DNA from: a virus
DNA length: 39,964 bases
IMG/VR virus record: IMGVR_UViG_3300046804_003091
Span: 1 to 39,964 of that record
Strand: one strand, 5' to 3'
Positions within the stretch are counted from its first letter, which is position 1. Every line of letters begins with the position of its first letter. Shown in pieces: positions 38,212-38,295 of this stretch. Both the position numbers and the translations under genes were made by a program. The notes beneath the pieces were generated by a model. That model made no database searches and had not been told where the DNA came from. It saw only the letters and a list, made by a program, of their open reading frames with translations.

Positions 38212-38295
38212 TTACTTATTCATCACGTACATAGTTACTTCAAATCCGAATCTCATTTCAGTAGCTTGAGGTGTTGTCCATACTGCTGCGCTCAT
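38212..38295 (-). CDS. pqqA: PqqA-like precursor peptide, 27 aa
   Basis: A gene too short for standard calling: ATG 38295-38293 to TAA 38214-38212, with AAAGGA nine bases before the ATG. The product begins [16 protein letters not shown], then [11 protein letters not shown]. It shares with bacterial PqqA the W-x-x-P start, the R-x-G-F/L-E-V-T-x-Y core and a basic end. The key E-x-x-x-Y pair is E19 and Y23. In PQQ synthesis, PqqA is the ribosomal substrate from which PqqE joins the Glu and Tyr side chains, after which PqqF/G, PqqB and PqqC finish the cofactor. No pqqB-E genes are in the window, so it would act as a substrate for host enzymes. It lies alone between a structured region and a terminator-like hairpin. 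Identity rests on my memory of PqqA sequences. Confidence 0.87.
   Translation of the reverse strand: [27 protein letters not shown]

Follow-up and report, generated by a model that had tools for sequence, protein, structure and literature searches.

By its sequence, the 27-residue gene at positions 38212–38295 (minus strand) of the window, the whole 39,964-base virus record analyzed here, is a genuine pqqA, and we consider it likely that the phage carries it as an auxiliary metabolic gene whose peptide feeds host PqqD and PqqE and, through PQQ, methanol dehydrogenase. The encoded PQQ precursor peptide scored 37.4 bits with the TIGR02107 profile (cut-off 20) and 39.7 bits with PF08042 (cut-off 21.1; E = 1.2e-10 over the whole record), and no other PqqA match was present in the record. 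Its length is within the PqqA size of about 22–29 residues. The residues W6-x-x-P9 and G17-F-E19-V-T-M-Y23 include a Glu/Tyr pair separated by three residues, E19 and Y23, which are the predicted crosslink residues. A preliminary description of this DNA had pointed to a 27-residue PqqA-like frame with a Shine–Dalgarno sequence and a core with E19 and Y23 spaced as in PqqA, all of which reads as described, and to a W-x-x-P start; the W-x-x-P is present, but its Trp is residue 6 rather than at the start. In the closest relative, the near-identical viral locus L329, box and cassette are the same but ATG and TGG are adjacent, whereas an in-frame insertion of 12 nt separates them in the window (ATG-AGCGCAGCAGTA-TGG vs ATG-TGG; MSAAVW vs MW). 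This four-residue N-terminal insertion could affect PqqD binding. From the Trp onward, the peptide is of the type found in the Methylophilaceae, which are methanol oxidizers.

In terms of genomic context, the window, which contains T4-like tail and baseplate genes, is a fragment of a T4-like myovirus, and pqqA sits in it among phage genes. When the window peptide was compared with 50,697 phage records using tblastn, 12 records matched: nine isolates, one uncultured phage genome (Manatee Spring), and two entries named "Acinetobacter phage". The nine isolates are all phages of Methylophilales/Methylophilaceae (P19250A, MEP301, Venkman, MEP401, MEP402, and four Melnitz variants) and span four lineages (P19250A/Venkman, MEP301, MEP401/402, and Melnitz). 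The window represents a fifth line, distant from Melnitz (a 419-aa tail protein shares 24.8% identity, and a baseplate protein 45.9% over 484 aa). The gene is annotated in none of the nine isolates, where it lies in gaps or, in Melnitz, antisense to a hypothetical ORF; it was missed by gene callers because it is only about 23 codons long, and a phage pqqA goes unmentioned in the papers describing Melnitz, MEP401/402, Venkman, and MEP301. The taxonomy lists other methylophages (MEP431–434, HIM624-A, phiMB624-A, and Venkman EXVC038S) that were not among the matches and are left out of this count, so that "every isolate" here means every methylophage isolate surfaced by our searches. Relatives of some of the pqqA-bearing isolates that infect other hosts, namely HTVC008M (Pelagibacter) and CRP-4 and CRP-5 (Roseobacter-group hosts), gave no pqqA match in the tblastn search, and a query with an alphaproteobacterial-type PqqA (approximate sequence) found no further phages. 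The two "Acinetobacter phage MD-2021a" matches were rejected as phage pqqA, as they represent a bacterial pqqABCDE operon deposited as phage; one of them (CAKLQF020000010.1), which also contains ppk and a nucleotidase gene, is probably mislabelled host DNA.

The gene is also widespread in uncultivated viruses. A codon pattern for RFGFEVTMY retrieved at least 120 stretches from IMG/VR, placing pqqA on at least 120 contigs, and a second pattern covering only the N-terminal half (W-T-x-P-x-A-T-E-M, core excluded) likewise retrieved at least 120. Among the matches listed, all 124 loci with the N-terminal pattern ran on into GFE[VI]T[ML]Y, so the E-x-x-x-Y core, the conservation of which the preliminary description had left to be seen in related phages, was kept throughout. 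Selection was estimated in 60 of the 75 non-redundant loci among the matches listed, from codons 10–18, which the N-terminal pattern does not cover. These codons gave a pS of 0.66, a pN of 0.032, and a pN/pS of 0.049, a ratio that is somewhat biased downwards because some loci entered via the RFGFEVTMY pattern; the eight variants seen were all conservative. This estimate was used in place of the whole-gene pN/pS of 0.148, which is biased by the retrieval pattern. The PqqA core thus appears to be under purifying selection. Relatives of the window were collected via the AAA-like gene (phrog_1250; 36858–37808, minus strand) that adjoins pqqA but lies outside the cassette. Among 22 such viral loci, pqqA was present in four, each time just before this gene, and absent from 18 in the available sequence (many are fragments, but records of 167.6 and 168.1 kb are included), with other sequence occupying its place. 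The pqqA cassette has therefore been gained or lost at one locus among related phages. Ahead of the cassette, the sequence GGTAGCAACTGAGG..CGCGA (window 38400–38470) is also conserved in several of the relatives that lack pqqA; it can pair with nearby window sequence and is perhaps a terminator or recombination site. No relative was found for the 84-aa neighbor at 38469–38723.

These distributions bear on the reading that pqqA is a passenger without function for the phage, that is, a piece of host DNA acquired accidentally, or host contigs wrongly binned as viral. Phage and host peptides are often identical, some of the IMG/VR contigs are short, and the two Acinetobacter entries are indeed bacterial. 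Nevertheless, the occurrence of pqqA in complete isolate genomes has already largely refuted this reading, and it is further opposed by the single site between phage genes in four related phages, the strong constraint despite high synonymous divergence, the promoter-like element and terminator belonging to the gene itself, and the lack of PqqE beside phage pqqA. We consider it highly improbable, and the auxiliary gene reading is retained.

PqqE was not detected above the cut-off in any of 79 pqqA-bearing viral records. The putative hosts, in contrast to the phages, have the enzyme. A genome scan of bacteria for E-[MLIF]-R-FGFEVTMY gave mainly Methylophilaceae matches, in which the two commonest peptides (23 aa each) were identical to the commonest phage peptides, and PqqE exceeded the cut-off in 117 of 120 Methylophilaceae genomes. 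Together with the peptide type and the sister isolates, these PqqE and pqqA data lead us to infer that the window phage infects Methylophilaceae. As to whether the predicted hosts have the PQQ pathway, a point raised in the preliminary description, its PqqE component is nearly universal in this family. Nine host genomes contained 1–12 pqqA copies each, in line with published strains, in which pqqA is present in 3–12 copies and the other pqq genes are typically single-copy (PMC4109929). Six marine Methylophilaceae sequences had two tandem pqqA genes about 200 bp apart. The earlier suggestion that the phage supplies extra PqqA to the host pathway is thus supported as a probable reading, and the lack of PqqE in the pqqA-bearing viral records strengthens it.

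The window itself encodes three radical SAM proteins, which raises the alternative that the peptide is modified by these phage enzymes (4012–9242) into a different product. None of them is a credible PqqE, the best match being 20.8 bits at 8574–8978 against a TIGR02109 cut-off of 381. Moreover, 28 of the 29 other pqqA-bearing records had no PqqE-like match whatever, and the 585-aa radical SAM enzyme has its own conserved Cys-rich neighbor in 28 of 28 loci. We regard modification by the phage's own enzymes as extremely unlikely and supply of the host pathway as the better account. The three radical SAM genes lie among tail genes (3303–9242 and 10344–11612) together with those for a phrog_36229 protein, a DUF3050 (haem-oxygenase-like) protein, and a class-III aminotransferase. 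A 68-aa ORF (9203–9409, minus strand) ending in ...HIFYDDYNTVCECQCACACGRGTV precedes the PapB-like radical SAM/SPASM gene (7485–9242, minus strand), and a 64–93-aa ORF with the same kind of Cys-x-Cys tail was found near the enzyme gene in all 28 related viral loci; this pair is a candidate phage RiPP precursor plus maturase. In a 123-aa ORF (11609–11980, minus strand), GHYHTYDDAYQ resembles SHSHIFYDDYN of the Cys-rich ORF, possibly reflecting a shared small domain.

The phage gene lies in a short cassette that includes a box, a −10-like hexamer, a ribosome site, and a terminator-like hairpin of its own. On the minus strand of the window, direct reading located a Shine–Dalgarno sequence, AAGGA (38305–38309), 9 nt before the ATG, and a similar purine-rich site was found ahead of all 128 extracted phage pqqA genes. 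A candidate −10 hexamer, TATAAC (38337–38342), follows the core of the box by 36 nt; a sigma-70 scan of the window found no consensus promoter for pqqA, TATAAC having been missed because no −35 is present. The box itself, AATTAATGGTTTTCACTA (38364–38381), which we call the "pqqA box", is a putative regulatory site shared with host pqqA genes. Directly 3′ of pqqA is a terminator-like hairpin, AAAGGGCCTC-GCAAT-GAGGCCTTT, followed by GTT (38170–38193; −17.9 kcal/mol, z = −2.84), and the relatives L325, L327, and L329 have a hairpin plus T6 at the matching position. Folding of the leader before the ribosome site showed a mild tendency toward a hairpin (mean z −0.85 in phages and −0.95 in hosts). 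An Rfam scan of 36500–39964 gave no match, and a tRNA scan of the window found none.

De novo motif discovery in front of phage pqqA gave TTnATGATTTTCnnTA, which matches the motif obtained independently for the regions ahead of host pqqA. Expectation maximization on 105 non-redundant phage upstream regions, among the matches listed, yielded natTaATGaTTTTcnttA, and an independent run on 101 host regions yielded TCATGAtTTTccTtAG. With matrix thresholds set at the 99% level of shuffled sequences, the host matrix passed in 67 of the 105 phage regions (1.1 expected) and the phage matrix in 70 of the 101 host regions (1.0 expected), compared with about 1% of the regions upstream of other ORFs in the same loci (21 of 2008 and 11 of 1743). 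This difference argues that pqqA probably travels with a host-like putative control site. An initial impression of a phage-only box, from a loose word count (25 of 128 phage and 6 of 128 host regions), was overturned by the de novo motifs. The exact box pattern occurred at 17 sites in eight host genomes, 11 of them 108–166 nt upstream of a pqqA. The box is centered near −83 from the ATG in phages and near −116 in hosts. A phage matrix from which the window had been left out gave the window box 19.3 bits, the next best site in the 40 kb reaching 11.6 bits. With the host-derived matrix the window box scored 10.6 bits, barely above the threshold of 10.1, and the top site of the 40 kb was at 11619 instead; in MEP402 the host-derived matrix recognized no box (4.0 bits). 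Among box-containing phage cassettes, the commonest distance from the box core to a −10-like hexamer was 37 nt (12 of 77), a spacing that would correspond to the geometry of an activator site replacing the −35. The shared box suggests that the phage gene may be read by the host regulator of pqqA.

The same box, being common to host copies and phage cassettes, could also be explained if the phages mainly spread pqqA cassettes among the Methylophilaceae, with any benefit to the phage being secondary. Such phage-borne spread would account for the scattered 3–12 host copies, and host pqqA is indeed dispersed as well as multi-copy (PMC4109929). On the other hand, most of the pqqA phage isolates are described as lytic, and phage and host cassettes are only 72–100% alike, mostly across the coding part, so we judge a primary role in gene spread very unlikely.

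Each PQQ molecule uses up one PqqA peptide, and PqqA is therefore the step at which added gene copies would profit the phage. In this scheme of substrate supply, phage PqqA would be bound by host PqqD during infection, its E19 and Y23 would be joined by host PqqE, and host enzymes would complete PQQ, which would load the periplasmic PQQ methanol dehydrogenase (XoxF/MxaF), the entry to host energy metabolism. PqqE is known to join the Glu and Tyr of PqqD-held PqqA, the remaining peptide being discarded (Barr et al. 2016, as cited in PMC7678222). A 72-kb viral contig (IMGVR_UViG_3300025120_009955) encodes pqqA together with formate dehydrogenase alpha and a 624-aa PQQ methanol/ethanol dehydrogenase (608 bits), as well as phage-type genes for ribonucleotide reductase, an exonuclease, and a spanin-like protein. 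The DEWDYDG motif of the dehydrogenase suggests a lanthanide-type XoxF. Curli-like proteins are also encoded on this contig. The gene set of this contig, the orphan pattern, and the multi-copy host pqqA all fit a supply of substrate for PQQ during infection. As a point against this, an infected cell that has ceased growing may already contain sufficient PQQ, so that an advantage for the phage is not obvious. The opposite effect, a lowering of PQQ synthesis because host PqqD/PqqE are tied up by the phage peptide or a host regulator is titrated by the box, is conceivable inasmuch as excess substrate could saturate PqqD/PqqE, the box resembles a binding site, and the N-terminus of the window peptide is unusual. 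However, some phages should have lost the crosslink residues if the peptide were a decoy, whereas nearly all loci retain the Glu, the Tyr, and the C-terminal tail, and the co-carried dehydrogenase points to more PQQ, not less; we therefore consider this effect unlikely and favor supply of substrate.

The preliminary description had allowed that such genes might already have been noted in other marine phages; a phage PqqA has been described for the Lake Baikal virus VP_266 (PMC7678222, 2020), in a virus of presumed methylotrophs and there accompanied by a methanol dehydrogenase gene; this kind of gene is therefore already known. VP_266, compared here by its description, is a single freshwater viral population, whereas the present data extend pqqA across cultured methylophages, with gain and loss and a shared box. 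In the accessible part of a report on reservoir sediment viruses (PMC13188868, 2026), pqqA, pqqE, and pqqD are listed as viral auxiliary genes and interpreted as phosphate solubilization, and that part describes neither an orphan pattern nor regulation. Bacterial PqqA of the Methylophilaceae type, starting MWT[TK], shares with the phage peptide its family (TIGR02107/PF08042), core, Glu-x-x-x-Tyr spacing, and C-terminus, and its gene has a comparable upstream box; the window copy differs in being phage-borne, in lacking pqqE, and in its four-residue N-terminal insertion. The pqqA of P19250A, Venkman, MEP301, MEP401/402, and Melnitz is of the same peptide type and is likewise an orphan in a short intergenic cassette, but these phages are unrelated or only distantly related to the window, and the gene occupies different genome sites. 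Within the open-licence literature, the new elements are the presence of pqqA in all surfaced methylophage isolates, the orphan pattern, the gain or loss at a single locus, and the upstream element common to phage and host copies; the precedent for multi-copy pqqA in Methylophilaceae is PMC4109929.

Whether orphan pqqA is near-general in Methylophilaceae phages of unrelated lineages, as a mobile regulated cassette with an operator recognized by the host pqqA regulator, we regard as an evenly balanced question; if true, viruses would insert into a regulon of the host a precursor peptide that is consumed stoichiometrically. Methylophilaceae oxidize methanol in lakes and coastal seas via PQQ enzymes. 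The presence of pqqA in all surfaced methylophage isolates, usually with a host-like control element, argues that methylotroph phages probably maintain the cofactor supply for methanol oxidation in their hosts. If phages routinely carry the sole PQQ gene whose product is consumed, pqqA would be a simple auxiliary gene of wide occurrence, and cultured systems would make it possible to ask if methanol oxidation in infected cells is limited by the supply of PqqA, and which host regulator binds the shared box.
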